A stretch of DNA of 64,000 bases from Hyphomicrobiales bacterium (lineage in GTDB: Bacteria > Pseudomonadota > Alphaproteobacteria > Rhizobiales > Beijerinckiaceae): positions 62,001 to 126,000 of the forward strand of contig JAGXAM010000001.1 of NCBI GenBank assembly GCA_019075905.1. The letters run 5' to 3'. The translations under genes were made by a program, and so were the position numbers. Shown one piece after another: positions 34,391-51,192 of this stretch. The notes beneath the pieces were generated by a model. The model did not search any database, was not told the origin of the DNA, and worked only from the letters and a program-made list of their open reading frames with translations. Positions within the stretch are counted from its first letter, which is position 1. Every line of letters begins with the position of its first letter.

Positions 34391-35530
34391 TCACAACAGG
34401 CCGCGGGCAGACAGCCAGTACATGCGGTTGTAGCCGAGCTTCAGCCAGTGCACCATGGCCGAGGGCGGGCCGGGATTGGGCGGGGTCGTATAGTTGAACA
34501 TGATATAGGTGCCGGTGGTCAGCCCCGTCTCGATAAAGCAATAGACCTTGCCATCGTAATTGCGCGACCAGCGTTGCTCTTTCAGCAAGGATGCAAGGTT
34601 GTCGACCACCGTATCGGCTTCGAAATGCGCGGTCGAACCGGCCTTGGAAATCGGGATATTGGTGGTATCGCCGACGATGAACACATTGTCCGAGCCTTCG
34701 CGCAGCAAGGTCTGCTTGTTGGTCGGCACCCAGCCGCCTGCCCCCAGTTGCGAGTCGGTGATGACCTGCGCACCGGAATGCGGCGGGATGGTGATCAACA
34801 GGTCGTAGGGCAGCGTCACACCTTCTTCGGAGGTGATGGTCCTGGCCTCGGGATCGACCGACTTGGTGTTGAAGAAGGTCTCGGACTTGATGCCGTGCTT
34901 CTGGAATTCCGGCACCGCCCAGTTGGCGACCGGTTCCAGCCCGTGCAACCGGCCGATGGGATAGGTGTAGGTGATTTCGGTCTTGTCCATCACGCCCCTG
35001 GCGATGAAAAACTCGCGCAGCATCAGCGTGACTTCGACCGGGGCGACCGGGCATTTGTGCGGGGCATTGACGTTGATGATGACCTTGCCGCCCTGGAACG
35101 CATTGAGCGCGTCACGCAATTTGCGCGCGCCATCAAGATCATAGAACCAGTGAGCGCCCTCGCTCATGCCGGGAATGGTATCGGGGCGGATACGCGAGCC
35201 AGTGGCAATCACCAGATAATCATAGGTGAAGGTCTTGCCGGAGGCGGTCGTGACTGACTTGGCCTCGACATCGATCTTTCTGGCAGGATCCACAAAAAAG
35301 GCGATTCGCTTGTCGAGCACCTTGCGCTGGTCGCGGAAAAGTTCGGATTCGCGCATTTTGCCAAAGGGCACATAAAGCAGGCCCGGCTGGTACATGTGCT
35401 TGTCGGTGTCGCCGATCATGGTGATCGTCACCGCGCCCGCAGCGAGTTCTGATCTTGTCTGCCGGGCGAGACCATTGGCTATGATCGTTCCGGCAACCCC
35501 GCCCCCGATAATCAATACTTGCTTGGCCAT
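34391..35530 (-). CDS. sqr: Sulfide:quinone oxidoreductase-like flavoprotein
   Basis: The 379-residue product has FAD motifs (QVLIIGGGVAGTIIANGL, YDYLVIATGSRIRPD, NVFIVGDTTN) and the two cysteines needed for sulfide oxidation: Cys160 in APHKCPVAP and Cys331 in VYCFIETG. The third Cys of type I enzymes is absent, so it belongs to one of the two-cysteine SQR types. It would oxidise sulfide to sulfane sulfur at the membrane and reduce quinone. A GGGGAGGACGTC lies directly before the ATG. Neighbouring tusA and dsrE genes provide acceptors for its product. Confidence 0.9.
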   Translation of the reverse strand: MAKQVLIIGGGVAGTIIANGLARQTRSELAAGAVTITMIGDTDKHMYQPGLLYVPFGKMRESELFRDQRKVLDKRIAFFVDPARKIDVEAKSVTTASGKTFTYDYLVIATGSRIRPDTIPGMSEGAHWFYDLDGARKLRDALNAFQGGKVIINVNAPHKCPVAPVEVTLMLREFFIARGVMDKTEITYTYPIGRLHGLEPVANWAVPEFQKHGIKSETFFNTKSVDPEARTITSEEGVTLPYDLLITIPPHSGAQVITDSQLGAGGWVPTNKQTLLREGSDNVFIVGDTTNIPISKAGSTAHFEADTVVDNLASLLKEQRWSRNYDGKVYCFIETGLTTGTYIMFNYTTPPNPGPPSAMVHWLKLGYNRMYWLSARGLL

Positions 35531-35587
35531 GACGTCCTCCCCGGTGGTTGATACAGTCTGGCTTTCCAGATCTGTTATGGCTTCAGG

Positions 35588-35818
35588 TCATTTTGCCTTG
35601 CGTACGAGAACACTCCAATAACCCTGCTGCTCGACGACGCCGACGCACTCGTGCTTTACTTTCTTGCACCATTCCGGAATGTCGGTGACCGAGCCCTTGT
35701 CGGTCGACCAGACGTCGACCTCATCGCCGACCGCCACGTTTTTCAGGGTCGCAATCAGCTCCATCAACGGGCCGGGGCAGAACGCGCCGCGGGCATCCAC
35801 GATTACTTTTTCGCTCAT
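35588..35818 (-). CDS. TusA-family sulfur carrier 2
   Basis: The 76-residue product from the ATG at 35818 has the TusA core DARGAFCPGPLMELIATLK, with the sulfur-accepting Cys in the C-P-x-P motif, and ends in VVEQQGYWSVLVRK. Two further Cys (EWCKKVKHECVG) are unusual for TusA and could also take part in sulfur transfer or metal binding. It lies between dsrE3 and sqr. It is distinct from the more canonical TusA encoded at 36261-36488. Confidence 0.88.
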   Translation of the reverse strand: MSEKVIVDARGAFCPGPLMELIATLKNVAVGDEVDVWSTDKGSVTDIPEWCKKVKHECVGVVEQQGYWSVLVRKAK

Positions 35819-35838
35819 GATCTGGCGGGCTCCAAAAT

Positions 35839-36237
35839 TCAGAGAGTTACAAATTGTCCGCTTTCGGCATCCGAGAGGAATTTGGTCAGGCCTAGCGGCC
35901 CGTCGAACAGCGTCTCGTCGAGATGCGACATCTCCCAGCCCTGGATGTCGAGCGCCATCGAACAGGCCCACATTTTGAGATCGCCGAGGTCCTTGCCCTG
36001 CTGGAACAAGACCATCGGGTCGGGGGCTTTCTGATCGTGCAATAATTTCGCGAAGGTGCCGCCATAATAGCGGGTGGCGGCGGGCACGCTTCTGTCGAAA
36101 GCCAGTATGGCATTCATGCTGACGAACACCTGCACCGGGCGCTCCGACACGGCGGCGACGGCTGCCATCATGGCAGCCATCTGGATTTTTTCGCGCTCAC
36201 CCGAACACAGCAGAATATAAAGTGCATTGTCCGCCAT
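35839..36237 (-). CDS. DsrE3-type cytoplasmic sulfurtransferase
   Basis: From the ATG at 36237 the product is 132 residues. The DsrE fold is seen in LYILLCSGEREKIQMAAMM, ERPVQVFVSMNAI and KMWACSMALDIQGW, where the Cys in the last motif is the expected sulfur-binding residue. DsrE3 proteins exchange persulfide sulfur with TusA and rhodanese. It is encoded between two TusA genes, 20 bp before the downstream one. No signal peptide is present, so it should act in the cytoplasm. Confidence 0.85.
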   Translation of the reverse strand: MADNALYILLCSGEREKIQMAAMMAAVAAVSERPVQVFVSMNAILAFDRSVPAATRYYGGTFAKLLHDQKAPDPMVLFQQGKDLGDLKMWACSMALDIQGWEMSHLDETLFDGPLGLTKFLSDAESGQFVTL

Positions 36238-36260
36238 AGGGTTACCCGCCTTGCGCCCGC

Positions 36261-36488
36261 TCAGGCGGTGCGCTTGATGAGGAATTTGTAGAGATTGCCG
36301 TCCTGTTTCGATTCCAGCATCTGGTTGCCGGTGGTGCGGCAAAAGGCTTCAAAATCCGGGATCGAGCCGGGATCGGTGGCGATGATTTCAAGCGTCTGCC
36401 CGGTCGCCATGTCCTTCAGCGCCTTCTTGGCACGCAGAATGGGCAGCGGGCAGTTCAATCCCTTGGCATCAAGTGTCTGGTCGGCCAT
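36261..36488 (-). CDS. tusA: TusA-family sulfur carrier 1
   Basis: The 75-residue product starts at the ATG at 36488 with AAGGA seven bases upstream. LDAKGLNCPLPILRAKKAL is the classical TusA motif with the C-P-x-P active site, followed by LEIIATDPGSIPDFEAFC. In sulfur oxidisers TusA is the central cytoplasmic carrier that hands sulfane sulfur to oxidising systems, here probably to the LbpA/sHdr pathway. A 22-base perfect palindrome lies just upstream at 36534-36555. Confidence 0.92.
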   Translation of the reverse strand: MADQTLDAKGLNCPLPILRAKKALKDMATGQTLEIIATDPGSIPDFEAFCRTTGNQMLESKQDGNLYKFLIKRTA

Positions 36489-36532
36489 ACTTGGTTCCTT
36501 CAAGTTCAGTCTTTGTCAGTTGCGGGCTGGTG

Positions 36533-37048
36533 TCAGATATAAAGATTTATATCTGCCTTCAGGGCGCCTTCCATATAGGTGGCAGCGCCTCCGAGTTGAA
36601 TGCCGCCAATCATGTCCTTGAGATCATATTCGAACAGATCCATGGTCATCTGGCAGGCGATCATCTTGACGTCGGATTCCACAGCGGCTTCGCGCAGATC
36701 CTCAATCGAGGCGACACCCTTCTTTTTGATGAGGTTCTTCATCATCCGCGAGGCGGCGGCATCGACGCCGGGAATCATGCCGACAATATTCGGCATGCCC
36801 ATATGCATGCCCATCATCGGCATTTTCATGGCCGGATTGCCGAGCGGTGTCACCTGCAAATCCAGCTTTTTCAGCAGCAGCGGCAGGCCGTAAAAGGTGA
36901 AAAACATCGTGACATCAACGCCCATGGCTGCCGCTGTGGTGGCAAGAATGAAGGGCGGATAGGCCCAGTCGAGCGAGCCCTTGGTAACGATGATGGACAT
37001 AGACCTGGCGTTGGACGAGCCAGCTACGCCCTGCGATTCATTTGCCAT
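36533..37048 (-). CDS. dsrE2: DsrE2-type sulfurtransferase
   Basis: The 171-residue product carries the DsrE2 pattern: IIVTKGSLDWAYPPFILATT, GVDVTMFFTFYGLPLLL, a Met-rich stretch (MKMPMMGMHMGMPNIVGM) and DVKMIACQMTMDLF with the conserved Cys. DsrE2 proteins contain a hydrophobic part and are thought to sit at the inner membrane, where they may pass sulfur between compartments. It is the first gene of the minus-strand sulfur operon. Its promoter carries operator-like site 1. Confidence 0.88.
   Translation of the reverse strand: MANESQGVAGSSNARSMSIIVTKGSLDWAYPPFILATTAAAMGVDVTMFFTFYGLPLLLKKLDLQVTPLGNPAMKMPMMGMHMGMPNIVGMIPGVDAAASRMMKNLIKKKGVASIEDLREAAVESDVKMIACQMTMDLFEYDLKDMIGGIQLGGAATYMEGALKADINLYI
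36534..36555. promoter_or_regulatory. Perfect 10-2-10 palindrome at the dsrE2 3' end
   Basis: CAGATATAAA (36534-36543) and its exact complement TTTATATCTG (36546-36555) are separated by GA. The palindrome encodes the last residues and stop of dsrE2 and ends 46 bases before the tusA ATG. It could be a regulator site or an AU-rich mRNA hairpin; it lacks the GC-rich stem of a terminator. Confidence 0.5.
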
Positions 37049-37112: not shown

Positions 37113-37130
37113 TATTAGCATAAATGAATA
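37113..37130. promoter_or_regulatory. Operator-like site 1 (TATTAG-N6-TGAATA), dsrE2/deacetylase divergent region
   Basis: TATTAG-CATAAA-TGAATA occupies 37113-37130 and also contains a perfect AGCATA-N6-TATGCT inverted repeat at 37117-37134. On the minus strand a consensus -35 TTGACA (37151-37146) lies 17 bases from 37128-37123, so the site covers the dsrE2 -10 region. Matching sites at 38362 and 43655 suggest one regulator, probably the ArsR protein encoded at 50878. Confidence 0.65.
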
Positions 37131-37176
37131 TGCTCTTGTCAGGAATGTCAAGCAATCTTTTTGAAAGAGCCGGAAT

Positions 37177-38313
37177 TTGCAACATCCTGCACCCAAGCCC
37201 GCGCCGCACAAGAGGCGGCCAGCCTTCGTCCATGCCGAGGTTTACCGTCGCGCCGCCTATGGCCAGAACCATCCTTTGGCGATTGCGCGGGTTGAGACCG
37301 CGGTTGACCTTTGTCTCGGGCTAGGGTGGCTCGAAGGCGGCTATCATGCCAGCCCGGTCGCCAGCCGCGAGCAGCTCGAAGCCTTCCATGCGCAAGATTA
37401 TATCGAGGCGCTTTATCAGGCTGAGGCCGCCGGGCTGACACCGGCGGCGCACCGGCAGGCCTATAATCTTGGCACGCGCGAAAATCCGGTGTTTGCGGGC
37501 ATATTCGAGCGAGCCTCAACCTCGGTCGGTGGCTCGATCCTGGCCGCCGAACTGGCGCTTCTGGGCGGCATTGCCTATCATCCGGCCGGGGGCACCCATC
37601 ATGGCCAAAAGGCGCGGGCCAGCGGCTTTTGCTATTTCAATGATCCGGTATTCGCGATCCTGACCTGTCTCGACAGGGGGCTGGAGCGCATCGTCTATGT
37701 CGATCTCGATGCCCACCATGGCGATGGCGTCGAAGATGCGTTTTTTGACAATGACAAGGTGTTCACGCTCTCGCTGCACGAGGCCGGGCGCTGGCCCGGC
37801 ACCGGCCTGCTGCATGACCGGCGCATGGGGCGGGCACGCAACCTGCCGGTGCCGCGCCATCTCAATGACAGCGAGCTCGATTACCTGATTCAGACGGCGA
37901 TCCTGCCGCTGGTGCAGCGCCAGCGACCGCAAGTGCTCGTCATCACCTGCGGGGCCGACAATCTTGCGGGCGACCCGCTGTCGACCATGGACTTGAGCAA
38001 TGGCGCGCTATGGCGGGCGGTGACCGGGCTCGCCGCCTGCGCTCCGGCTGTAGTGGTTCTGGGTGGTGGCGGCTACAATCCCTGGACGCTGGGGCGCGCC
38101 TGGGCCGGGCTGTGGGCGGCGCTCAATGGTTTTGAGGTGCCCGAGCGGCTGCCATCTGCCCTCAACGGCTTGCTGAAAGGCCTGACATGCGATCTGGTAG
38201 AGGATGAGGACATAAGGCCGGAATGGCTGACGACGCTGCGCGATCCGCCGAACCATGGCCCGGTGCGCGACGAAATAAAGGCCATGGCCGACACGATCAT
38301 GCGCGAGGCCTGA
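37177..38313 (+). CDS. Histone deacetylase-fold zinc hydrolase inside the sulfur island
   Basis: The 378-residue product belongs to the AcuC/AphA/HDAC superfamily. The active site is complete: His141-His142 (GGTHHGQKA), zinc ligands Asp178 and His180 (VYVDLDAHHGDGVED), a third Asp in TCGADNLAGDP, and the transition-state Tyr in GGGGYNPW. Bacterial members remove acetyl groups from proteins, polyamines or small molecules. It starts at a TTG at 37177; there is no ATG near the N-terminus. It sits between the sqr operon and lipS1 and shares operator-like site 1. Its substrate in sulfur metabolism is unknown. Confidence 0.87.
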   Translation: MQHPAPKPAPHKRRPAFVHAEVYRRAAYGQNHPLAIARVETAVDLCLGLGWLEGGYHASPVASREQLEAFHAQDYIEALYQAEAAGLTPAAHRQAYNLGTRENPVFAGIFERASTSVGGSILAAELALLGGIAYHPAGGTHHGQKARASGFCYFNDPVFAILTCLDRGLERIVYVDLDAHHGDGVEDAFFDNDKVFTLSLHEAGRWPGTGLLHDRRMGRARNLPVPRHLNDSELDYLIQTAILPLVQRQRPQVLVITCGADNLAGDPLSTMDLSNGALWRAVTGLAACAPAVVVLGGGGYNPWTLGRAWAGLWAALNGFEVPERLPSALNGLLKGLTCDLVEDEDIRPEWLTTLRDPPNHGPVRDEIKAMADTIMREA

Positions 38314-38361
38314 GACCTGACCAAAAAACCATTTGCGGTTTCGCCGGCATGATGTCATCTA

Positions 38362-38379
38362 TATTAGAAAAACTGAATA
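38362..38379 (+). promoter_or_regulatory. Operator-like site 2 (TATTAG-N6-TGAATA) before lipS1
   Basis: TATTAG-AAAAAC-TGAATA has both half-sites identical to site 1 with a different spacer. It overlaps a possible -10 (TATATT, 38360-38365) and ends just before the lipS1 ribosome binding site (AGAGGA). A good -35 box was not found, so the promoter call is weak while the repeat itself is clear. Confidence 0.6.
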
Positions 38380-38390
38380 GAGGAACGCTC

Positions 38391-39452
38391 ATGGACTGGA
38401 ATGGCGCTCTTGCCGGGATCGAAGCCCTTGAAGATGCAGAGCTCGACCATCGCCTGATTGGTGAGTTTCAGCATCAGGCCTCGCTGGCACCCTTGCGGGA
38501 AATGCGGTTTTCGACGCCGACCTTCAAGGAATATTCTTCGGGAGAAATTTCCGGCTGCTCGAAGAATTCGTTTCCGGCCTTTTCGGTGACGGCGGCGGCC
38601 TGTGCGCTGGACTGCGACCATTGCCAGGCAAAAATACTCGAACCGATGATCCCGGCGACGACGCCGGAGATGCTGGATGCCAAGGTGCGCGACCTCGTGT
38701 TGTTGCAGGACTTGCAGGGCTTTCTGCTGTCGGGCGGCTCAAACCGGCGCAATGAAATCAAATATGAGCGCTATTTGCCGGTGGTCGAGAAGCTGAAGCA
38801 CGATTTTCCCTATCTCAAAATTGCGATCCATTCGGCGCTGACCGATGAAAGGCGGGCGCGGCAGATGGCCGATGCCGGCGTCGATACCGCGATGATGGAT
38901 GTGATCGGCGCGCAGGAAACCATCCGCGACGTTTATCATCTCGATCGCAGTGTCGATGATTTCGAGGCGACACTGGCGGCGCTGTGCGCGACCGACATGG
39001 AAATCGTGCCGCATATTGTCATCGGGCTGCATTACGGGCGGATCCTAGGTGAGGCGCGGGCGCTGGATATTGTGGCGCGCCACGCGATACATTCGCTGGT
39101 ACTGGTGGTGGTGATGCCGTTTTATGGCCGCGACGGCATGTTTGTGACGCCGGCGACCAGAGATGTCGGGCGGATATTCCTGGAAGCGCGACGCAAGATC
39201 CCGGATCGCCAGGTGCTGCTCGGCTGCGCCCGTCCGCCCGGCATGCACAAGCGCGTCACCGATGCCTATGCGGTGATGGCCGGGCTCGATGGCATTGCCT
39301 TTCCGGCCGAGGGCGCGGTGGCGGTAGCGCGGGCGCTGGGGCGGCCGTTCAGCCAGCAACATGCCTGCTGCTCGATCAAGGTTGGCGGGCAGATGCCGCG
39401 CGCCGGGGCCCGCAGCCAGGAGCGGCAACTCGTGCATGGATGCGCAAGATGA
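38391..39452 (+). CDS. lipS1: Radical SAM lipoyl synthase subunit LipS1
   Basis: From the ATG at 38391, with AGAGGA upstream, the product is 353 residues. It has a radical SAM cluster motif Cys71-x3-Cys75-x2-Cys78 (ACALDCDHCQAK), an extra Cys at 56 (GCSKNS), and the GFLLSGGSNRRNEIKYERYL segment. LipS1 and LipS2 together insert the two sulfur atoms into octanoyl-protein in the non-LipA lipoate pathway described for sHdr-containing bacteria and archaea. An in-frame extension to 38223 overlaps the deacetylase gene and was rejected. It is followed by lipT with a 4-base overlap. Confidence 0.92.
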   Translation: MDWNGALAGIEALEDAELDHRLIGEFQHQASLAPLREMRFSTPTFKEYSSGEISGCSKNSFPAFSVTAAACALDCDHCQAKILEPMIPATTPEMLDAKVRDLVLLQDLQGFLLSGGSNRRNEIKYERYLPVVEKLKHDFPYLKIAIHSALTDERRARQMADAGVDTAMMDVIGAQETIRDVYHLDRSVDDFEATLAALCATDMEIVPHIVIGLHYGRILGEARALDIVARHAIHSLVLVVVMPFYGRDGMFVTPATRDVGRIFLEARRKIPDRQVLLGCARPPGMHKRVTDAYAVMAGLDGIAFPAEGAVAVARALGRPFSQQHACCSIKVGGQMPRAGARSQERQLVHGCAR

Positions 39453-40573
39453 GGGCGGGGCTGGCCGCTGATCTGGTGGTGGTCGGGCTCGGCCCGGCCG
39501 GCGCCAGTGCGGCGCTGGCGGCGGCAAGCGGCGGCCTGCGGGTGATCGGCCTCGACCGTCGCCGCGAGGCCGGACTCCCGGTGCAATGCGCGGAATTTGT
39601 GCCCGGCCCGCTGCTGGGTCAGGCGAGCGGCCTGCCGGAGGCGATCCGCCAGCCGATCAGCGCGATGCACACCTATCTGGCCGGCGAGGCACCGTGTCTG
39701 ACGGCGGATTTTCGCGGCCAGATGATTGACCGTGCCGCCTTTGACCAGGCGCTGGTCAGCGCGGCTGTCGATGCCGGGGCGCAGGTGCGGTTTGGTGCCA
39801 GCGTCAAGGCGATCACGCCGGAAGGTGTGGTGCTGCAAAATGGCGAGATCCTCGATGCGCCGGTGCTGATCGGCGCGGATGGCCCGCGCTCGCTGCTGGG
39901 GCTAGCGATCGGTGCCGGGGCGCAGGCGCTGGTGGAAACCCGGCAGATCACGGTCCCCCTGCATGAGCCGCATGCCGCAACCGACATATTTTTGTCGCCC
40001 GACTATCGCGGCGGCTATGCCTGGCTGTTCCCCAAGGGAGCGGTGGCGCATATCGGGCTCGGGGTTGAGCCGGCGCTGCGCCATCAGCTCAAGGGGCTGC
40101 TGGAAGCCTTGCATGCCGCGTTGGTGGCCACAGGGCGGGTCGGGCGCGAGATCATGAACCTCACCGGCGGGGCGATTCCGGTCGGCGGGTTGCGGCGCTG
40201 CACGGGCATGGCGCAGGGGCGCAGCATCCTGCTGGCCGGCGATGCCGCGGGCCTCACCAATCCGGTGACCGGTGCGGGCATTGCCTCGGCGGTGCAATCC
40301 GGGCGCATGGCCGGCGAGGCGACGGTGCGGCTGGCGCAGGGCCACACGCAGGCGGTCAGCGATTATGCGCTTGATCTTGATGATATTTTCGGCGTTTCAC
40401 TGGCGCGGGCGGTGGCGCGGCGCACGCATCTCATGGCGAAGCCGACCGCAGATGTGAGGGCGCAGCCGCAGCACCTGCGGCAAGGGTGGATCGCATATCC
40501 GGAATATTGGGCGCCGCTGACAATAGATGGCACCCGGCAGAATTTCAGCCACAATGAAAGAGCTCTTCCATGA
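39449..40573 (+). CDS. lipT: FAD-dependent oxidoreductase LipT (geranylgeranyl reductase-like)
   Basis: The 374-residue product begins with an FAD-binding Rossmann motif ([18 protein letters not shown]) and has ILLAGDAAGLTNPVTGAGI near residue 260, which identifies the geranylgeranyl-reductase-like flavoprotein family. In lipoate loci with lipS1 and lipS2 this gene is called lipT and probably supplies electrons to the radical SAM lipoyl synthase. The ATG at 39449 overlaps the lipS1 stop (ATGA); another ATG at 39440 is possible. It overlaps lipS2 in the same way. Confidence 0.88.
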   Translation: MRAGLAADLVVVGLGPAGASAALAAASGGLRVIGLDRRREAGLPVQCAEFVPGPLLGQASGLPEAIRQPISAMHTYLAGEAPCLTADFRGQMIDRAAFDQALVSAAVDAGAQVRFGASVKAITPEGVVLQNGEILDAPVLIGADGPRSLLGLAIGAGAQALVETRQITVPLHEPHAATDIFLSPDYRGGYAWLFPKGAVAHIGLGVEPALRHQLKGLLEALHAALVATGRVGREIMNLTGGAIPVGGLRRCTGMAQGRSILLAGDAAGLTNPVTGAGIASAVQSGRMAGEATVRLAQGHTQAVSDYALDLDDIFGVSLARAVARRTHLMAKPTADVRAQPQHLRQGWIAYPEYWAPLTIDGTRQNFSHNERALP

Positions 40574-41835
40574 CCTGTCTCAAGCCAGAAACCCGCCTGC
40601 CCGCGCCTACCGGCGCGCATGGTGCCGATTTCAATGCCGCCGCGCTGATGAAGCCGCGCGCGCCGCTGCCGACCCCGGGTGACCGCCGCAATGGCGGCGC
40701 GGTCAAGGCGCAGGGCATCGTGCCGCAGGGCTTTTATATGCCCAACAACAATATCCAGACGCCGGAAATGCGTTCGCCAGATTATGTGCAGCTTTCGACG
40801 GCGGCGGCGATCACGCTGGGGCTGATGCAGGGCAAGATGCACCGCTGCGGCTGCACGCGCTGCCTCAACCTGCTGCTGACCTATCCCGAAGGCTGCCGCG
40901 CCAATTGCGCCTATTGCGGCCTCGCCCGCCACCGCGAAGCCGACCGTGATTATGCCGACCGCAATTTCATCAGGGTGGACTGGCCGGCGGTGCCGATGGC
41001 GCAGATCATCGACATTGTGGCGCGCGATGGCGCCAACAGCCCGTTTCATCGCATGTGCATCTCAATGATCACGCATCCGCGCTCGGATGCTGACACATTC
41101 AGCGTGCTCAAGGCCTGGACCGACAGGATCGATCCCAAGACCATACCGGTGTCGATCCTCTCCAACCCCACCACCATGCAGCGCGCCGATGTCGCGCGGC
41201 TCAAGGACATGGGCGCCGATATTTTCACGGTGGCGCTGGATGCGGCGACGCCGGAGATTTTTGATGCGACGCGCGGCAAGGGTGTCGACTCGCCGCATTC
41301 TTGGCGCAAATACTGGGAAATCCTCCAGGATGCGCGCGATATCTTTGGCCCGCAGAAATTCGGCGCCCATATCATCGTCGGCATGGGCGAGACCGAATTT
41401 GATTCGCTGAGCCTGATCCAAAAGATCGTCGACATGGGCGGGCACAGCCACATGTTCTGCTTCTTCCCGGAAAAAGGCTCGCTGATGGACCATCTGCCGG
41501 CGACGCCGCGTGACCAGTGGAGGCGCGTGCAGCTCGGGCGCTATCTGATCGACTACGCCGGCGGGCGGGTCGAGAACATGAGCTTTGACGACAAGGGCCG
41601 GGTGGTGGATTTCGGCTTCAGCCAGGATGTGCTCAACCCGATCATCGATAAGGCGGTGGCGTTCCGCACCTCGGGCTGCCCGGGCAAGGTGGCCGAGGAT
41701 ATTTCTGCCTGCGACCGGCCCTATGGTGATTCCCCGCCGAGCAATATTGCCAGCTATCCGTTCCAGCCGAACAAGGCGGATGTGACGAAAATCCGTCGCC
41801 AGCTCGCCATTCCGCGCCCCCGCAACCAGCCATAG
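40570..41835 (+). CDS. lipS2: Radical SAM lipoyl synthase subunit LipS2
   Basis: The 421-residue product has two cysteine clusters close together: CGCTRC (Cys93, Cys95, Cys98) and the radical SAM motif GCRANCAYCGL (Cys109, Cys113, Cys116). Further motifs are ISMITHPRSDADTFSVLKAW and HMFCFFPEKGSLMDHL. It pairs with LipS1 in two-protein lipoyl synthases. Its ATG overlaps the lipT stop, and the ligase gene follows after 15 bp. The C-terminal CPGKVAEDISACDRPYGDSP adds more conserved Cys. Confidence 0.92.
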   Translation: MTCLKPETRLPAPTGAHGADFNAAALMKPRAPLPTPGDRRNGGAVKAQGIVPQGFYMPNNNIQTPEMRSPDYVQLSTAAAITLGLMQGKMHRCGCTRCLNLLLTYPEGCRANCAYCGLARHREADRDYADRNFIRVDWPAVPMAQIIDIVARDGANSPFHRMCISMITHPRSDADTFSVLKAWTDRIDPKTIPVSILSNPTTMQRADVARLKDMGADIFTVALDAATPEIFDATRGKGVDSPHSWRKYWEILQDARDIFGPQKFGAHIIVGMGETEFDSLSLIQKIVDMGGHSHMFCFFPEKGSLMDHLPATPRDQWRRVQLGRYLIDYAGGRVENMSFDDKGRVVDFGFSQDVLNPIIDKAVAFRTSGCPGKVAEDISACDRPYGDSPPSNIASYPFQPNKADVTKIRRQLAIPRPRNQP

Positions 41836-41850
41836 CGAAAGGGCTGCCCC

Positions 41851-42918
41851 ATGCAGAAAGTTTTTCGCGTCATTGACACCGGCGTGCGCGAGGGGCGGGC
41901 CAATATCGCCTTTGACCAGGCGCTGATCGACCTGCACCAGCGCCGTGTCATTCCCGACACGATCCGGTTCCTGCAGTTCCGGCCCTCGGCGCTGGTCGGG
42001 CGGCACCAGGCGCTGGCGCGCGAGGTGCATGTCGATTTTTGCCGCGATCACAATATCGGGCTGGTGCGGCGCATCACTGGCGGCGGCGCGCTTTATATGG
42101 ACGAGGGCCAGTTCGGCTTCGAGCTGGTGTTTCACCGCGCCACGCTGGGGATCAGCTCACTCAATGAGCTGGCGCGCATCCTGTGCGAGGCGGCGGCCAG
42201 GGGATTGCAGAATCTCGGCGTGGCGGCGCGCTACCGGCCGCGCAATGACATCGAGGTCGATGGCCGCAAGGTCAGCGGCACCGGCGGGTTTTTCGATGGC
42301 GACACGCTGTTCTACCAGGGGACGATCCTGGTCGACATGGACCCGGCGCGGATGCTGGCGGCGCTGAATGTGCCGCAGGACAAGCTTGCCAAACGCGCGC
42401 TCGATTCGGCCGGGCAACGGGTGGTGACCTTGCGCGAATTGCTGGGCGCGCGGCTGCCGGACGTTGCCGCCATCAAGGCGGCGATGCTGAAGGGATTTGC
42501 CGAGGCCCTGGGGATCGAGCCGGTGCAAGGTAATATTTCCGATGCCGAGGAGGCTTTGGCGGCGCAGATATGGCGCGATGAAATTGGCACGGATGAGTTC
42601 GTGCACGAGCTTGAGGACCCTGCCGGGCAGGAAAATGTGCTGAGCGCCAGCCTGCAGGGGCCGGGCGGCACGATCAGCGCGCATTTGCGCCTCGAAGACA
42701 GCCGGATTCGCGAAGTGCTGTTCACCGGTGATTTTTTTGTCACGCCGCCGCGTGTCATTTTTGATCTTGAAGCGCATTTGCGCGGCACGGCGGTGGCTGA
42801 TGTCGAAGCGCAGGTGGCGCAGTTTTTCAATGCGGCCAAGGTCGGCCTGCTCTCGGCGCGTTCGAGCGATTTTGCCGCTGCGGTCGGCGAGGCGGCGGCA
42901 AAGGCAGTGGCGGCGTGA
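41851..42918 (+). CDS. lplA: Lipoate-protein ligase specific for the sHdr carrier, sLpl(AB)
   Basis: The 355-residue product is a complete LplA-type ligase: VRRITGGGALYMDEGQFGFE, PRNDIEVDGRKVSGTGGF with the conserved Lys, and a C-terminal accessory (LplB-like) domain from about residue 255. Dedicated ligases of this type attach octanoate or lipoate to LbpA rather than to pyruvate dehydrogenase. It overlaps the start of the amidotransferase-like gene by 4 bases. The position between lipS2 and the sHdr genes supports the specificity call. Confidence 0.9.
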   Translation: MQKVFRVIDTGVREGRANIAFDQALIDLHQRRVIPDTIRFLQFRPSALVGRHQALAREVHVDFCRDHNIGLVRRITGGGALYMDEGQFGFELVFHRATLGISSLNELARILCEAAARGLQNLGVAARYRPRNDIEVDGRKVSGTGGFFDGDTLFYQGTILVDMDPARMLAALNVPQDKLAKRALDSAGQRVVTLRELLGARLPDVAAIKAAMLKGFAEALGIEPVQGNISDAEEALAAQIWRDEIGTDEFVHELEDPAGQENVLSASLQGPGGTISAHLRLEDSRIREVLFTGDFFVTPPRVIFDLEAHLRGTAVADVEAQVAQFFNAAKVGLLSARSSDFAAAVGEAAAKAVAA

Positions 42919-43613
42919 AGCACCTCACCATCATCCAGCACACATCGGCAGATTATCTCGGGCTGATGGAAGATCACTTCGAGGGCCGGCGCATACGCTT
43001 CAGCTATTTCCGGCCGTTCACCGCCGGGGGCAAGGTGCCGGAAGCGACTGCGATCAGCGACGGGCTGATCCTGCTCGGCGGTGGGCCGTGGGGCAGCGCC
43101 GGTGAGCGCATCGTCCCCAATCTCGATGCCGAAATCAGGCTGGCGCGTATGTGCCTGATGCTGGACAAGCCCGTGATCGGCATTGGCCTTGGCGCGCAGA
43201 TCCTGAGCCTTGCGGCCGATGGCGGTGCCGTGGCGACCCCGCTGAATTTTGAGGTCGGCATGGCGCAACGACAGGCGGACGATGCGCTGAACGGCTTCCT
43301 GCCGGCGCAATTCCCGCATGTGGTCTATATGCGCGACCGGCCCGAGCCGCCCGCCTATGCCAAAATTCTGGCGCACGATGCCGCCGGACTTCCGGCGCTG
43401 TTCCAGATCGGCCGGAAGGCCTTCGGTTTTACCGGCCACCCCGGCTTCAAACTGGCCATGGCCGAAGACCTGGTGATGGAATTTGAAGAGTCGCCCGACA
43501 ACCCGCTGCCAAAATTTGCCGCGCTGGGGCGCATGAAACAGCAGATCGAGGATGCGCTGGTGCCGATCATGACCGGGCTTATCCAGCTGACGGGATTGAT
43601 GGAAAATAATTAA
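42915..43613 (+). CDS. Class I glutamine amidotransferase-like protein lacking the catalytic Cys
   Basis: The 232-residue product has the GATase fold (DGLILLGGGPWGSAGE, DKPVIGIGLGAQILSLAAD, GRKAFGFTGHPGFK). In active enzymes the nucleophile elbow reads G-x-C-x-G-x-Q; here the Cys position is Gly91 (GIGLGAQ), so glutaminase activity should be absent. It overlaps the ligase gene by 4 bases and closes the lipoate-assembly block. A ligand-binding or scaffold role is more likely than amidotransfer. Similar genes accompany sHdr loci, from memory. Confidence 0.85.
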   Translation: MKHLTIIQHTSADYLGLMEDHFEGRRIRFSYFRPFTAGGKVPEATAISDGLILLGGGPWGSAGERIVPNLDAEIRLARMCLMLDKPVIGIGLGAQILSLAADGGAVATPLNFEVGMAQRQADDALNGFLPAQFPHVVYMRDRPEPPAYAKILAHDAAGLPALFQIGRKAFGFTGHPGFKLAMAEDLVMEFEESPDNPLPKFAALGRMKQQIEDALVPIMTGLIQLTGLMENN

Positions 43614-43634
43614 CAGGCCCGCTTTCGGAGGGAC

Positions 43635-43672
43635 TTGCATATCGTCATATCTTGTATTAGAGAATGCTAATA
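43635..43672 (+). promoter_or_regulatory. Promoter with operator-like site 3 (TATTAG-N6-CTAATA) before the shdr operon
   Basis: TATTAG-AGAATG-CTAATA (43655-43672) is a perfect 6-6-6 inverted repeat. A possible -35 TTGCAT (43635-43640) is 17 bases from TAGAGA (43658-43663), so the site would cover the -10. The dsrE3C start is about 80 bases downstream. The left half-site is identical to sites 1 and 2. Confidence 0.65.
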
Positions 43673-43753: not shown

Positions 43754-44131
43754 ATGGCAAAGAAGCTCATAATTGTCATGGCCAATACCGATCCGCGCAA
43801 CGGCGAGGAACTCGGCGCGCCGTTTTTTCAGGCCTCGGTCGCTGCCGCGATGGATTATGAGGTTGAGGTCATCTGCACCGCCACCTCTGGCGCGCTGATG
43901 AAAAAGGGCTTTGCCGAAAAGCTGCATGTGAAGGCCGGTTCGCCGAAAACGGTCTATCAATTCATTCAGGAAGCCCATGAAGCCGGCGTGAAATTCATGT
44001 GCTGCTCGCCCAACCTTGATCTCTTCGACATGACCAAGGACGATCTGATCCCGGAATGCTCGGGGATTGTCGGCGGCGCCTATCTGATCGAAGAGGTCAT
44101 GGAAGCCGACTGCAAGGTGATGACTTATTGA
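43754..44131 (+). CDS. dsrE3C: DsrE3C-type sulfurtransferase of the sHdr system
   Basis: The 125-residue product shows a DsrE fold (KLIIVMANTDPRNGEELG, VEVICTATSGALMKKGFAE) and a CC pair at residues 83-84 (GVKFMCCSPNLDLF), the expected sulfur-binding place. In Hyphomicrobium the corresponding protein exchanges sulfur with TusA and probably loads the sHdr pathway. A GGAGGAAATAA precedes the ATG. It is the first gene of the sHdr operon, 18 bp before shdrC1. Confidence 0.9.
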   Translation: MAKKLIIVMANTDPRNGEELGAPFFQASVAAAMDYEVEVICTATSGALMKKGFAEKLHVKAGSPKTVYQFIQEAHEAGVKFMCCSPNLDLFDMTKDDLIPECSGIVGGAYLIEEVMEADCKVMTY

Positions 44132-44149
44132 TTGCAGGAGGCAAGCGAC

Positions 44150-44902
44150 ATGGAACATGCCCACTCTTCCCGCGTCCAGACGTTCATTGGTGATCCGCTC
44201 AGCGACACGCCCGAGGTGCCGCGCCCGCAGCTCGAAGAGATTTTTGCGGATATCCAGGGCGACATGCGCTTCAACCATGAACTCAATGGTTGCCTGAACT
44301 GCGGCATCTGCACTGCCACCTGCCCGGCAGCGCATTATTATGATTTCAGCCCGCGCGAAATCGTCCAGTTGCTGTGGACCGAGAATCTCGAAGGCATTTA
44401 TGATGCCATGCAGGAAAAAATCTGGTCCTGCGCGCAATGCTATACATGTGCTGCCCGCTGCCCGTTCGAAAATTCGCCGGGCGGGCTGATCATGATCATG
44501 CGCGAGACGGCGATCAAGCATGGCATGGAATCGGCCAAGAACGTGCTGCGCCCGTTCAGCCGCGTCATGCTCAAGCTGGTTTCGACCGGCAACCAGCTCG
44601 CGCCCGACATGATCACGGCCGATGGTTTCGCCGACTGGGGGCCGAATATCTCCAAGGTGAAGGCGCCGCTGAAGATCCTGCGCAAGGCCATTCCCATGCC
44701 GACGCTGAACACGACCGAGACGGCGTGGGAAGTGAATCTGAAGACCTCGGTCGAGCTCTACACGATCTGGGAAATGACCGGGGTTCTCAACCAGCTTGAG
44801 ACGATCGATGAGAACCTGTTCGATGTCATCTCCGACATCATGGATGAAAAAAAGCAAGATTATCAGGACTTTGTTGACGAACAGGCCGAGGACGACGCCT
44901 GA
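44150..44902 (+). CDS. shdrC1: sHdrC1, ferredoxin-like subunit of the sulfur-oxidising Hdr-like complex
   Basis: From the ATG at 44150, with GCAGGAGGCAAGCGAC upstream, the product is 250 residues. It holds two [4Fe-4S] motifs: Cys48-51-54-58 (CLNCGICTATCP) and Cys94-97-100-104 (CAQCYTCAARCP). The acidic C-terminus (DEQAEDDA) is not part of the fold. It should wire electrons between HdrB1 and HdrA in the cytoplasm. Comparable HdrC proteins serve methanogens, but the neighbours here are those of the sulfur-oxidising system. Confidence 0.92.
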   Translation: MEHAHSSRVQTFIGDPLSDTPEVPRPQLEEIFADIQGDMRFNHELNGCLNCGICTATCPAAHYYDFSPREIVQLLWTENLEGIYDAMQEKIWSCAQCYTCAARCPFENSPGGLIMIMRETAIKHGMESAKNVLRPFSRVMLKLVSTGNQLAPDMITADGFADWGPNISKVKAPLKILRKAIPMPTLNTTETAWEVNLKTSVELYTIWEMTGVLNQLETIDENLFDVISDIMDEKKQDYQDFVDEQAEDDA

Positions 44903-44937
44903 CCTCCCCTGCCTTGGATGAAATGAGGAGCGGACCC

Positions 44938-46311
44938 ATGAGTGCACCTAATTGCGGTGAAAGACTGACCGGCCACGGCTCGGAATGGCGTGATGCCAAC
45001 CTCAGCCCGGAAGATGCGCGCACGGCGACCAACTGGGTTGAGCAAAGGATCGACAAGCGCTCGATGCTCACCAGCAAGGATCGCGTCCATGATGTGCGTG
45101 ACATCATGTGGCAGCTCGAAAAGGATGGCGAGATCGTCGTCCACCGCATCCGCGACGAGCATGAGCCGATCGAGGCCAAGACGCTTTATGGCTGGACCAA
45201 GCGCATCCCGACCAACCAGCTCTGGCACCACAAGTCCTGCGGCCAATGTGGCAATATTCCCGGCTATCCGGCCTCCCTGCTGTGGCTGATGAACAAGCTC
45301 GACAAGCGCTATGTTGACGAAACCGACCAGACATCATGCACCGCGTGGAATTACCACGGCTCAGGCATCGGCAATCTCGAAAGCCTCGCCGCCGTGTTTC
45401 TGCGCAACTTCCACCAGGCCTATGTCTCGGCCAAGGCCGAAGGCCTGCCGGAAGGCTATTATTACCCGCTGGTGCATTGCGGTACCTCGTTCGGCAATTA
45501 CAAGGAAGTGCGCGGCTATCTGCTGCAATCGGCCGAATTGCGCGACCGGGTGAAGAAAATCCTCGGCAAGCTCGGCCGCCTCGTCGACGGCAAGCTGCTG
45601 ATCCCGGAAGAAATCGTGCATTACTCGGAATGGGTGCACGTGATGCGGCACGAAATCGCCAAGCACCGGGTGATCGATTGCAGCAACATTCGCTCGACCA
45701 TCCACCCTGCCTGCCATGTCTACAAGATGGTGCCGCAGGATGCGATCTATGATGACAGCATTCTTGAGGGCAACCGCGTCGCCGTTTCCACCGGCATCAT
45801 GCAGGCGCTCGGCACCAATGTGATCGATTATTCGACCTGGTATGATTGCTGCGGCTTCGGCTTCCGCCATATCATTTCGGAGCGCGAATTCACGCGCTCG
45901 TTCTCGATCGACCGCAAGATCATGATCGCCCAGAACGAGGCCCATTCCGATGTGATGATCGGCCATGATACCGGCTGCATCACCACGCTCGACAAGAGCC
46001 AGTGGATCGGCAAGTCGGCGGGCAAGGAGGTCGATCTGCCGGTGCTGGCGGATGTGCAGTTTGCGGCGCTGGCCTGCGGTGCGCATCCCTACAAGATCGT
46101 GCAATCGCACTGGCATGCCTCGTCGACCGAAAAGCTGATGGAAAAGCTCGGCATCGACTGGCGCGCCAAAAAGGCGGAATTCGAGGCCTATCTCGAAGAT
46201 GTGAAGCTCGGCAAGCAGGACAATCTCTATGACCCGCGCCGCATGATCACCTCAGGCCCCGGGTTCAACCCCCTCACCAAGACCACGACCCTAGCGATCG
46301 GGAGACCCTGA
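44938..46311 (+). CDS. shdrB1: sHdrB1, CCG-domain subunit of the sulfur-oxidising Hdr-like complex
   Basis: From the ATG at 44938 (GAGGAGCGGACCC upstream) the product is 457 residues, longer than HdrB2. The C-terminal cysteine pattern HPACHVYKM, WYDCCGFGF and HDTGCITTLD resembles a CCG domain but has only one Cys at its end. The N-terminal half keeps scattered Cys (KSCGQCGNIPGYP, SCTAWNYHG, VHCGTSFGN) without a clean CCG motif. This suggests one cluster here against two in HdrB2. It overlaps shdrA by one base. Confidence 0.92.
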   Translation: MSAPNCGERLTGHGSEWRDANLSPEDARTATNWVEQRIDKRSMLTSKDRVHDVRDIMWQLEKDGEIVVHRIRDEHEPIEAKTLYGWTKRIPTNQLWHHKSCGQCGNIPGYPASLLWLMNKLDKRYVDETDQTSCTAWNYHGSGIGNLESLAAVFLRNFHQAYVSAKAEGLPEGYYYPLVHCGTSFGNYKEVRGYLLQSAELRDRVKKILGKLGRLVDGKLLIPEEIVHYSEWVHVMRHEIAKHRVIDCSNIRSTIHPACHVYKMVPQDAIYDDSILEGNRVAVSTGIMQALGTNVIDYSTWYDCCGFGFRHIISEREFTRSFSIDRKIMIAQNEAHSDVMIGHDTGCITTLDKSQWIGKSAGKEVDLPVLADVQFAALACGAHPYKIVQSHWHASSTEKLMEKLGIDWRAKKAEFEAYLEDVKLGKQDNLYDPRRMITSGPGFNPLTKTTTLAIGRP

Positions 46312-47357
46312 TGCGTGACCCTGTTTTAATTGTTGGCGGCGGACCGGCCGGACTGGCTGCGGCCCATGCGCTCTCCAGCGTCGGCCAGCCGAATATCCTG
46401 GTCGAGAAAATGGACCGGCTCGGCGGCGCGCCAATTCTTTCCGGCTATGCCAAGCTGGTGCCGTCGGGCGAATGGGCGAAAGACGCCATTGGCGGCATGG
46501 TCTCGCGGGTCGTGGACAACAAGCTGACCGACGTGCGGCTCAATGCCAGCGTCAAAAGCTTTGATGGCCAGCCAGGCGATTTCCATGCGGTGCTGAGCGA
46601 TGGATCGTCGCTCAAGGCGAGCGCGGCGATGCTTGCCACCGGCTTCACGCATTTCGACTCGGTCAACAAGCCGGAATGGGGTTTTGGCCTGTTCCCCGAT
46701 GTGGTGACGACGACGCAGGTCGAGCAGATGCTGTCCTCGGGCCAGGGCGTGCATTGTCCCTCCGACGGGCGCAAGCCGAAGCGCGTGGCGATCCTGCTGT
46801 GCGTCGGCTCGCGTGACCGGCAGATCGGCCGGGAATGGTGCTCGAAGATCTGCTGCACGGTGTCTGCCAATATCGCGATGGAAATCCGCGAGGAATTACC
46901 CGATTGCCATGTCTACATCTATTACATGGATATCCGCACCTTCGGGCTGCTGGAGCAGAAATATTACTGGCGCAGCCAGGAAGAATTCAAGGTCAAGTAT
47001 ATCAAGGCGCGTATCGCCGAGGTCACCTCCAACGGCAACCAGCTGATCGTCAAGGGTGAGGATACGCTGGTCAAGCGGCCGATCACCATTCCCTTTGACA
47101 TGGTGGTTCATGCCGTCGGCATGGATCCCAACGTCGATAATATGACGCTGGCGGCCATTTTCGGCGTCAAGCTGGAGACCAACGGCTTCATCGACCGCAA
47201 GAACACCTATGGCGTGATGGGCGCGACCAGCCGCGCCGGCGTGTTTGTGGCGGGTTCCGCAACCGGACCGGAAACGATCGACGATTCCATCGCGCAAGGC
47301 CATGCCGCAGCCATATCGGCCCTGGGGCTGATGCCGGTTGGCGTGGCGGCGGAATAG
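46311..47357 (+). CDS. shdrA: sHdrA, FAD-binding subunit of the sulfur-oxidising Hdr-like complex
   Basis: The 348-residue product starts at the ATG sharing a base with the shdrB1 stop. It has the FAD motif LIVGGGPAGLAAAHAL, a second nucleotide-binding part (MVVHAVGMDPNVDNMTLA) and an atypical iron-sulfur site with Cys164 (LLCVGSRD) and Cys177, Cys181, Cys182 (WCSKICCTV). It is about half the size of methanogen HdrA and lacks ferredoxin inserts, as expected for sHdrA. It is the core of the complex that oxidises carrier-bound sulfur. Confidence 0.93.
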   Translation: MRDPVLIVGGGPAGLAAAHALSSVGQPNILVEKMDRLGGAPILSGYAKLVPSGEWAKDAIGGMVSRVVDNKLTDVRLNASVKSFDGQPGDFHAVLSDGSSLKASAAMLATGFTHFDSVNKPEWGFGLFPDVVTTTQVEQMLSSGQGVHCPSDGRKPKRVAILLCVGSRDRQIGREWCSKICCTVSANIAMEIREELPDCHVYIYYMDIRTFGLLEQKYYWRSQEEFKVKYIKARIAEVTSNGNQLIVKGEDTLVKRPITIPFDMVVHAVGMDPNVDNMTLAAIFGVKLETNGFIDRKNTYGVMGATSRAGVFVAGSATGPETIDDSIAQGHAAAISALGLMPVGVAAE

Positions 47358-47366
47358 GAGCGCGAC

Positions 47367-48236
47367 GTGGCGACTCTGGCCTGGCTCACAGTCGACAAAC
47401 CAGGGGTGCCGGACATTGCGCGCCCGCATCTGGACCTGAGCGGGCCGCTGCTGGCTTCCGCCTTCGAGGCGCTGGCGCGCGGCAGCGAGCAACTTGGCGG
47501 CGTCGAGCGCTATGTCGAGGCGTTAAAACTGAAATCGGCGCTGTTCAAGGACACGCTGGGTGAGGGCAAGGTCGCATCGCTCAACCTTGAAGGCTTCATG
47601 GGGCTTTGCACCTTCATGGCGACGGTGCGGCGGCGGGTGGCACCCTATCTGTCACAGGACGGGCTGGTCAGGATCCGCGCCGGCCTGGTGGAATTGCTGG
47701 AGGGGGCGGGCAATACCGCCACCACCGATCAGCGGATGGCGGCGTTCTGCGCGCGCTTTCCCACCGACAAGGCGCACCGCTTCGTGCATGATCTTGCCGC
47801 CGAAGTGCTGCATAATGTCGACCCCGAGCGCTATCCGCTGATGAACCGCTGGGTGTGGGATGCCAAGCCCAATACCGGCGCCGTGCGGGAAATCTGGTTC
47901 GGCGACAATGTCGACCATATCACCATCCCCCTGCCCGACGGCTACCCGACCTTCCTGATGCTGCGCGAGGAACTGGCGCAATTCCTCACCGGCCAGGGCG
48001 TGTTTCGCGATGTCATGTTTTTCGTCGATATGCTGACAGCGCAGATTTACGCCAATTATATTTCGGCGCAGGGAGGCACTTATCTGCGGGCGGATTTCTC
48101 CACCGCAGAGGACCCCATGCACCATACGCGGCGGATACTGGGGCTGGACGGCATCCGCCCCGGTTCCTCGCGCATGCGCCTCAAGGCCATCGACGGCGAG
48201 GCCTTTGTCCTCGACGATTCCAAACTCCTTGGATGA
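47367..48236 (+). CDS. Conserved sHdr-associated protein of unknown function (Hyp)
   Basis: The 289-residue product begins at a GTG at 47367 with GGAGCGCGAC upstream. It has no cofactor motif that I recognise. Helical and His/Trp-containing segments are LNLEGFMGLCTFMATVRRR, PLMNRWVWDAKPNTGAVREI and MFFVDMLTAQIYANYISAQG. A gene in this place, between shdrA and shdrC2, is a fixed part of sHdr loci, from memory, so it is probably a complex subunit or assembly factor. No signal peptide is present. Confidence 0.85.
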   Translation: MATLAWLTVDKPGVPDIARPHLDLSGPLLASAFEALARGSEQLGGVERYVEALKLKSALFKDTLGEGKVASLNLEGFMGLCTFMATVRRRVAPYLSQDGLVRIRAGLVELLEGAGNTATTDQRMAAFCARFPTDKAHRFVHDLAAEVLHNVDPERYPLMNRWVWDAKPNTGAVREIWFGDNVDHITIPLPDGYPTFLMLREELAQFLTGQGVFRDVMFFVDMLTAQIYANYISAQGGTYLRADFSTAEDPMHHTRRILGLDGIRPGSSRMRLKAIDGEAFVLDDSKLLG

Positions 48237-48248
48237 GAGACCCATAAA

Positions 48249-49037
48249 ATGGCTATTCACGAGAAGCACCTCATTCGCCCGGAAAACATCAAGTCGCATG
48301 AAAAGCTCGTGCTGGATGGCATTGATATTTCCGGCCACTGGAGCACCTTCATCGAGACCCGCGTGGTCAAGGATTATAACGAGGACCTGCAGGAAGAGAT
48401 CAGCGCGCTGCCCGGCGGCGAGAATGTGCATCGTTGCTGGCAATGCGGCTCATGCACCAATGCCTGCACAGTCAATGCCATCAACCCGGATTTCAACCCG
48501 CGCTACTGGATCTATCTGATCCGCATGGGCATGGAATCAGAATTGCTGCGTGACAAGGAGATCATCTGGCAATGCGTCTCGTGCAACAAATGCACCTATG
48601 TGTGCCCGCGCGAGGTTGCGCCCGAGGGGGTGATGAAAGCCACCGCCCACTGGCTGGAGCTGAAGGGGCACACCAAGCCCTCGCCCTCGACGATTTTCGA
48701 TGATGTGTTTTCGAGCCAGGTGATCAACACCGGCAAGATCGAGGATGGGCTCGTGGTGCGCAATTTCTTCAAGCGCACCGGCCAGTCGCTCAACCAGCCG
48801 TGGCTGGTGGAAATGGTCAAGCGCATGATGGCGCACCTGCCGGTGACCATGCTGATGAAGCTCGGCCTTTCGACCGTGGTGCACCCGCGCACGCAGAACT
48901 GGGGCGCCGCGCGCGATGCCATCAATGAATATGTCGCCGAGCAGGATGCGCATCACCGCAAGGCACTGGGGCTGGAAGGCCTTGTCGAGATGGCCAAGCA
49001 GGAAGCCGCCGCCCCCTTCAAACACGCCGCAGAATAG
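48249..49037 (+). CDS. shdrC2: sHdrC2, ferredoxin-like subunit of the sulfur-oxidising Hdr-like complex
   Basis: The 262-residue product has two cluster motifs: Cys63-66-69-73 (CWQCGSCTNACTV) and Cys109-112-115-119 (CVSCNKCTYVCP). The first lacks the usual Pro after the fourth Cys. Spacing and length match the second HdrC of the sHdr complex, which partners HdrB2. The ATG at 48249 lies 12 bp after the Hyp gene. The C-terminus is helical and basic to acidic without other motifs. Confidence 0.92.
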   Translation: MAIHEKHLIRPENIKSHEKLVLDGIDISGHWSTFIETRVVKDYNEDLQEEISALPGGENVHRCWQCGSCTNACTVNAINPDFNPRYWIYLIRMGMESELLRDKEIIWQCVSCNKCTYVCPREVAPEGVMKATAHWLELKGHTKPSPSTIFDDVFSSQVINTGKIEDGLVVRNFFKRTGQSLNQPWLVEMVKRMMAHLPVTMLMKLGLSTVVHPRTQNWGAARDAINEYVAEQDAHHRKALGLEGLVEMAKQEAAAPFKHAAE

Positions 49038-49050
49038 GAAGTGCAGCGCC

Positions 49051-50405: not shown

Positions 50406-50420
50406 GACGGGGAGGCGGGA

Positions 50421-50877: not shown

Positions 50878-51192
50878 ATGCATGACCCTATGGAGCAACT
50901 GGCAGACAAGGCTGACCATGCTGCGCTTGTGCTCAGATCCATCAGCAACAAGTGGCGGCTGCAGATACTTTGCCAGCTGGTCAAGGGTGAAAAATCGGTT
51001 GGCGAGCTGGAAGATGTGATTCCGCTCAGCCAATCGGCGCTGTCACAACATCTTGCCGTGCTGCGCCACAATAATCTCGTGGCCACCCGCCGCGACGCAC
51101 AGATGATCATCTACTCAGTTGAAGGCACGGAAGTGCATTTCATCCTCGGCGCCCTCTATGAGCTTTATTGCAGCTCGGCCGAACTTTCATGA
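50878..51192 (+). CDS. shdrR: ArsR-family transcriptional repressor sHdrR
   Basis: From the ATG at 50878 the product is 104 residues: a winged helix with the recognition helix SQSALSQHLAVLRHNNLV and wing TRRDAQMIIYSV. Cys32 (QILCQLV) and Cys98 (LYCSSAEL) are 66 residues apart. In the characterised Hyphomicrobium repressor sHdrR two conserved Cys respond to sulfur species, from memory. It is last in the operon and could act on the three TATTAG sites, including its own promoter. The ATG at 50890 is an alternative start. Confidence 0.9.
   Translation: MHDPMEQLADKADHAALVLRSISNKWRLQILCQLVKGEKSVGELEDVIPLSQSALSQHLAVLRHNNLVATRRDAQMIIYSVEGTEVHFILGALYELYCSSAELS

Follow-up and report, generated by a model that had tools for sequence, protein, structure and literature searches.

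Three predicted operators for an ArsR-type repressor in the sHdr sulfur-oxidation island of a Hyphomicrobiales bacterium

The sHdr sulfur-oxidation island of a Hyphomicrobiales bacterium (assembly GCA_019075905.1) lies within a stretch of 64,000 nucleotides of contig JAGXAM010000001.1 (positions 62,001 to 126,000, forward strand; this whole stretch is referred to as the window, and its first letter is position 1), and three short matching sites are located in front of its transcription units. These sites very probably serve as operators for a repressor of the ArsR type, akin to SqrR, BigR and sHdrR; the likeliest candidate is the protein whose gene is linked to lbpA at the end of the island, and it would switch the pathway in response to sulfane sulfur. 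The three candidate operators, each of 18 bp, are as follows.

37113-37130, no strand given: operator 1 (predicted), TATTAGCATAAATGAATA, between the divergent dsrE2 and deacetylase genes, with counterparts in relatives
38362-38379, no strand given: operator 2 (predicted), TATTAGAAAAACTGAATA, ending 11 bp before the ATG of lipS1
43655-43672, no strand given: operator 3 (predicted), TATTAGAGAATGCTAATA, beginning 99 bp 5' of the ATG of dsrE3C

A preliminary description of this DNA had reported sites at these coordinates with a common left half, TATTAG, and a spacing of 6 bases, and the letters agree with it at all three. Sites 1 and 2 share TGAATA, as had also been claimed, site 3 is a perfect inverted repeat (its 6-bp arms match perfectly), and the sites do precede each unit of the island, separating the leftward dsrE2 unit and the deacetylase gene, the lipS1-lipX genes and the dsrE3C-arsR genes. 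In many relatives the counterpart of operator 2 begins 27 to 30 bases 5' of the lipS1 start, and the symmetric TTAG-N6-CTAA form is seen again 5' of dsrE3C.

The exact motif is specific for these places. In the genome from which the window comes (2,881,883 bases in 33 contigs, with the reversed pattern as control), TATTAG-N6-TGAATA occurs exactly at two places, both in the island, and the broader pattern TATTMR-N6-YKAATA at four, viz. the three island sites and a match at C24:134830, which ends 18 bp before cydA, the gene for subunit I of the cytochrome bd oxidase; the reversed pattern is nowhere matched exactly. The four genomes of the genus hold 4, 3, 3 and 2 exact places, and 11 of these 12 are at island promoters and one is at cyd, the reversed counts being 0, 0, 1 and 0. 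The check set beforehand, a genome scan for enrichment of the motif at sulfur genes, thus placed 4/4 exact matches in the genome itself, and 12/12 in the four genus genomes, at promoters of sulfur or bd-oxidase genes. Around ArsR genes in island genomes, matches with one mismatch number 8 versus 1 for the reversed pattern, and with two mismatches there is no excess (12 versus 17). In eight other members of the family or order, which lack LipS1 at E up to 1e-60, the exact counts are 0, 0, 0, 1, 1, 0, 2 and 14, and the reversed counts 2, 0, 2, 0, 0, 0, 3 and 4. The 14 places, versus 4 reversed, are found in a member of the same order (G035), and one of them is about 240 bases 5' of a gene for an ArsR with an RQSL-type helix, a type described below.

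The motif is also conserved in the corresponding loci of distant relatives. For this comparison the best 80 of 152 LipS1 loci, from 84,980 species genomes, were used, many of them metagenome assemblies with doubtful names. These loci hold 48 exact matches to TATTMR-N6-YKAATA, and 41 of them lie 5' of lipS1, dsrE3C or the deacetylase gene (within 250 bases upstream; 42,136 positions in 78 loci), whereas the remaining 1,233,217 positions have only 7. The reversed pattern is found once within the same upstream positions. When one locus is taken for each of the 63 distinct LipS1 clusters (90% identity), 34 matches are upstream and 6 elsewhere. Among all 78 loci, 52 have a site within one mismatch in the three upstream regions. 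A count of 4-mer pairs made independently of the motif (gaps of 2 to 12; expectations from 10 local base shuffles) ranks ATTC-N9-AATA first, in 30/63 locus groups with 0.7 expected, and TATT-N10-AATA second, in 28/63 with 0.8 expected.

Likely promoter elements are located on or beside the three sites. Except for the TTG counts, for which the regions were aligned on the operator, these elements were read by eye.

38333-38361, + strand: likely lipS1 promoter, TTGCGG-N17-CATCTA, directly abutting operator 2
37146-37151, - strand: likely -35 element TTGACA of the dsrE2 unit, beginning 21 bp ahead of site 1 when read towards dsrE2
43635-43663, + strand: possible dsrE3C promoter, TTGCAT-N17-TAGAGA, overlapping operator 3 (a weaker case)

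Among 28 deduplicated lipS1 sites TTG occurs 16 times at -32 to -28, about 5 being expected from the mean per offset, and for dsrE2 CAA (TTG when read on the opposite strand) is found 18 bases past the operator in 9/23 deduplicated sites, the mean per offset being 0.7. For dsrE3C, TTG peaks at -20 (6/26 deduplicated sites) and again at -7 to -5 (11 occurrences), and hence two layouts occur 5' of this gene. A layout of the lipS1 type can also be read by eye at cyd (TTGCGC-N17-CATATT) and at a second sqr gene of the genome (TTGATC-N17-CATATT). The earlier statement that the sites overlap likely -10 regions therefore holds in substance, as they are on or beside likely core promoters, although this is a by-eye reading and site 2 abuts its promoter rather than overlapping it. 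An operator that covers the -10 or the start region is in the usual place for a repressor. The overlap with likely -10 positions, or the abutment on them, would equally be seen if the motif were an AT-rich promoter element common to sulfur genes and no operator. However, conservation extends to the two arms and to their spacing, a reversed pattern with the same base composition hardly occurs in those upstream positions (1 versus 41), and among lipS1, dsrE3C and dsrE2 the palindrome persists although it sits differently with respect to the likely -35 element; due to this we consider such an element very improbable.

The candidate repressor is encoded where the preliminary description had placed it, at the end of the last unit, and this arrangement is conserved. 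Its sequence has the winged-helix domain of this family (Pfam HTH_5, 45.3 bits with a cut-off of 22; NCBIfam HTH_metalloreg, 78.3 bits with a cut-off of 55) and both cysteines at the positions of Cys50 and Cys116 of SqrR/sHdrR-type sensors, and both are present in 31/31 ArsRs from 30 island genomes. With this protein as query, matches at E up to 1e-10 are found in 38/38 and 31/32 island genomes versus 27/37 relatives without LipS1. In 28/40 pieces of sequence from 39 genomes arsR directly follows lbpA, and the other 12 pieces show no lbpA. The pieces were chosen around ArsR matches, the first 20 where the end of the island was expected, and the linkage is seen in 20/20 of these and in 8/20 of the others; it is seen also in L028 and G003. 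As the sample was selected by LipS1 and ArsR similarity, these figures are no census. An earlier count of linked ArsRs (8/52 operator loci) was discarded in favour of 28/40, because it is an artefact of a 10-kb flank that stops short of the end of the island. At one island end (G074:C231:48023-48673, L184) two divergent ArsR genes are adjacent, one of the lbpA-linked type and the other with a different helix.

In a tree of ArsR sequences (122 rows, 93 columns, many open forks), 31 lbpA-linked ArsRs fall within one cluster of 47 rows (support 88, not starred), which holds no row from relatives lacking the island; however, they do not form one strict clade (9 label changes). The rows with an RQSL helix form a separate clade (13 rows, support 100, starred), and 11/13 of them have a third cysteine. 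The ArsR of the window is outside this clade and without the third cysteine, and SqrR and BigR are located elsewhere on the tree. The sHdrR of Hyphomicrobium denitrificans (Hden_0682), placed by Cys63 and gene order alone, would belong to the RQSL clade, and orthology of the window ArsR with it is therefore not supported. Thus the term sHdrR regulon, used in the preliminary description, is apt by the position of the gene, but the protein falls outside the clade with Hyphomicrobium-type features and the regulon would also reach past the island.

The half-sites and the recognition helices tend to agree. In 50 operator loci with an ArsR row (L038 and L081, which have none, were dropped), 31 pair a TATTAG half-site with an [SN]QS[AG]xSQHL helix, 12 have only TATTC half-sites together with another helix, and 7 disagree, viz. 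L025, L031, L042, L051, L033, L044 and L078, of which L033 and L078 have helices one letter off the pattern. The agreement in 43/50 loci (Fisher p 5e-6) refers to the helix of the match most like the window ArsR and not to every ArsR of a genome. However, it should not be interpreted as phylogenetically independent: there are 2 independent pairs on the starred branches of the LipS1 tree (7 on all branches), and due to this common descent can explain it. With slightly less than even confidence, we suggest that in Alpha-, Beta- and Gammaproteobacteria the sHdr islands are accompanied by a distinct subfamily of ArsR, encoded after lbpA, which reads TATTAG by means of an SQSALSQHL-type helix, that islands with SqrR-like or Hyphomicrobium-type ArsRs carry TATTC instead, and that via this operator one sulfane-sulfur signal sets the sulfide-to-sulfate route together with the bd oxidase.

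Targets are also predicted outside the island. A profile built from 55 sites (one of them in the window and the rest in loci of relatives; E up to 10) reports five places in the genome, viz. the three island sites, C5:118208 in front of the second sqr, and the cyd site, and the sqr and cyd places have no counterpart among the training sites. Against the SQR structure 3sz0 the product of the C5 gene reaches 479 bits, and the genes behind it encode a membrane protein resembling YgaP and a protein of the HlyD type. In another genome, G001, the profile reports the three sites of the island, the sqr site again, and a place 40 bp before a cytochrome P450 gene. This P450-side match is at C23:14376-14398 (L309:1501-1523), the P450 being named by eye; a P450 gene is also described within the sulfur locus of H. 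denitrificans (PMC12423496). These matches suggest that the regulon extends to the second SQR, with the efflux-type gene behind it, and to the bd oxidase. The gene soxX is preceded by a one-mismatch site, as is the second sqr, and both sites are identical in G001; sox is possibly part of the regulon, its case being made by context and by the identity in G001 only, since one-mismatch matches are at background level. In G016 (regions C159:3252-4119 and C135:17681-19889), a family relative that lacks the island, two ArsR copies, 49% identical to that of the window, are each about 580 bp upstream of a cydA gene, a neighbourhood that fits the cyd site. The outlying exact matches in the LipS1 loci of relatives are as follows.

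L019 and L022: 5' of soxX
L044: between sat and an HdrA-like gene
L049 and L082: 5' of a molybdopterin oxidoreductase gene, SoeA-like by our reading, the family models being generic
L067 and L068: 5' of tusA

A number of results weigh against the interpretation of these sites as operators of the lbpA-linked repressor, or against the wider regulon. When one mismatch is allowed, the genome shows no excess of the motif (15 places versus 20 reversed); 5 of the 11 one-mismatch places are inside long open reading frames and 4 precede genes with no clear sulfur link, the remaining 2 being the sqr and soxX sites. The other candidates (fadL on C8, moeA on C27, two on C30 and the five inside reading frames) were dropped as targets. 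Further, 26/78 loci have no site within one mismatch in the three upstream regions. The E-values of the profile are weak (0.098 to 0.75), among its training sites were one of the window and some of near relatives, and it does not report the sox site in the genome. The cyd site, looked for in 28 cydA loci, recurs with 1 mismatch in G001 and has no match within 1 mismatch in 26/28, and its conservation past G001 was hence not found. Both cysteines are present also in 26/27 ArsRs of relatives without the island, and due to this they support the type of sensor and not its link to the island. Lastly, a paralog 85% identical to the island ArsR is encoded on C12.

The background level of one-mismatch matches, and a scan of the window alone with three mismatches, which is not significant (12 matches versus 7.62 in shuffles, 8/100 shuffles reaching 12), are as expected if the likeness of three AT-rich intergenic stretches were due to chance. 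However, the specificity of the exact matches and their conservation in distant loci leave practically no room for chance, and we regard this explanation as refuted.

The paralog bears on another question, viz. which repressor works at these operators. At E up to 0.001 the genome has two further relatives of the island ArsR, one on C12 (C12:44158, 85% identical) and an SqrR-like one on C1 (C1:88122, 39% identical), and either of these, alone or with the island ArsR, could be the working repressor. The C12 copy shares the helix core SQSALSQHLAVLR with the island ArsR and has both cysteines, two related repressors of H. denitrificans bind the same fragments according to PMC12423496, and in G002 the nearest ArsR is about 50 kb from lipS1. 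However, it is the lbpA-linked arsR that keeps its place beside the island, and the helix of the C1 copy is different (RQATVSQHL), so that we consider a working repressor from C12 or C1 unlikely, though it deserves to be kept in mind. The C12 gene (G000:C12:44158-44451, L089:8117-8476) is beside genes resembling 2-oxoglutarate oxygenases (by eye), and its 3.3-kb locus contains no operator match within 1 mismatch.

If the lbpA-linked ArsR is the repressor, we infer the following course. A homodimer of it would bind each TATT(A/C)(G/A)-N6-inverted site on or beside the core promoter and block transcription of the island units. Upon accumulation of sulfane sulfur (persulfide, polysulfide), a sulfur bridge would form between the two conserved cysteines and the dimer would leave the DNA, by which sulfide oxidation (SQR, DsrE2, TusA), lipoate assembly and the sHdr complex would be turned on together. 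As the repressor gene is in the last unit that it would control, negative feedback may be expected.

The genes of the island are listed below. Where there is no match to a family model, genes are named after the published sHdr gene order.

34391-37048, - strand: leftward unit of dsrE2, tusA, dsrE-like, tusA and SQR-like genes
36533-37048, - strand: dsrE2, in the leftward unit
36261-36503, - strand: first tusA, in the leftward unit
35839-36243, - strand: dsrE-like gene, no family match, named by position
35588-35833, - strand: second tusA, in the leftward unit
34391-35530, - strand: SQR-like gene, in the leftward unit
37177-38313, + strand: histone-deacetylase-like gene (Pfam Hist_deacetyl, 216.9 bits)
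38391-43613, + strand: lipoate unit of lipS1, lipT, lipS2, lplA-like and lipX
38391-39452, + strand: lipS1 (188.4 bits with the LipS1 model, short of the cut-off of 230)
39440-40573, + strand: lipT, by published order
40570-41835, + strand: lipS2, by published order
41851-42918, + strand: lplA-like gene, by published order
42915-43613, + strand: lipX, by published order
43754-50864, + strand: sHdr unit of dsrE3C, hdrC1, hdrB1, hdrA, hdrH, hdrC2, hdrB2, hyp and lbpA, named by published order
50878-51192, + strand: predicted ArsR-type repressor gene, last of the sHdr unit; an alternative start at 50818 overlaps lbpA

The histone-deacetylase-like gene is present in 57/80 LipS1 loci, and in 45 of these it has the orientation of lipS1 and is at most 400 bases 5' of it. 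LipS1 at E up to 1e-60 is found in 4/41 genomes of the family and order, all of the window's genus, and in none of the other 37, which suggests that among these the island was gained or kept only in this genus.

As far as our literature search showed, the control of sHdr sulfur oxidation has been studied in one species, and the search, which covered paper listings and parts of main texts, found no report of this operator for shdr genes or of the lbpA-arsR linkage; a motif may be given in the supplementary Figure S6 of PMC12423496, on the repeats in the H. denitrificans fragments. Together, the conserved operator and the lbpA-arsR linkage, which is frequent, provide a rule shared by a wide range of sulfur oxidizers, with predicted targets outside the island (the second SQR, the bd oxidase and sox; in relatives also sat and molybdopterin oxidoreductases), and the link between recognition helix and half-site becomes testable.

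According to the reports on H. denitrificans (PMC12423496, PMC10451225), sHdrR and SoxR bind fragments 5' of lipS1 and dsrE3C, lipS1 and the shdr genes are transcribed constitutively once sHdrR is lost, the control of these genes by the two repressors is thiosulfate-dependent, and a sulfur bridge between cysteines frees SoxR from DNA. The window resembles this system in its ArsR-type protein with two conserved cysteines and in its candidate sites before lipS1 and dsrE3C. However, in H. denitrificans shdrR precedes lipS1 and its protein has Cys63, whereas here the ArsR gene follows lbpA and the protein lacks that cysteine. Further, relatives of sHdrR with two cysteines are stated to be rarely near shdr genes, with the remark that other modes of control may exist (PMC12423496), whereas two-cysteine ArsRs beside lbpA are frequent in our selected sample. 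The nearest solved structures are HlyU, NolR, BigR, YgaV and SqrR (82.6, 74.2, 66.9, 62 and 61.6 bits), and the known targets of the first four differ; in the NCBIfam BigR equivalog model (NF040642) the window ArsR scores 83 bits, below the cut-off of 155. According to PMC9774250, cydAB read counts are up in a ygaV mutant and the site of SqrR is deduced as ATTC-N8-GAAT. The geometry of our sites is the same as that of the Rhodobacter capsulatus SqrR site, and the cyd and sqr sites fit it exactly, whereas one or both arms of the island sites read ATTA, with A in place of C, and the recognition helix is SQSALSQHL in the window ArsR versus RQAAVSQQL in SqrR. The TATTAG half-site of the island sites differs from the published one.

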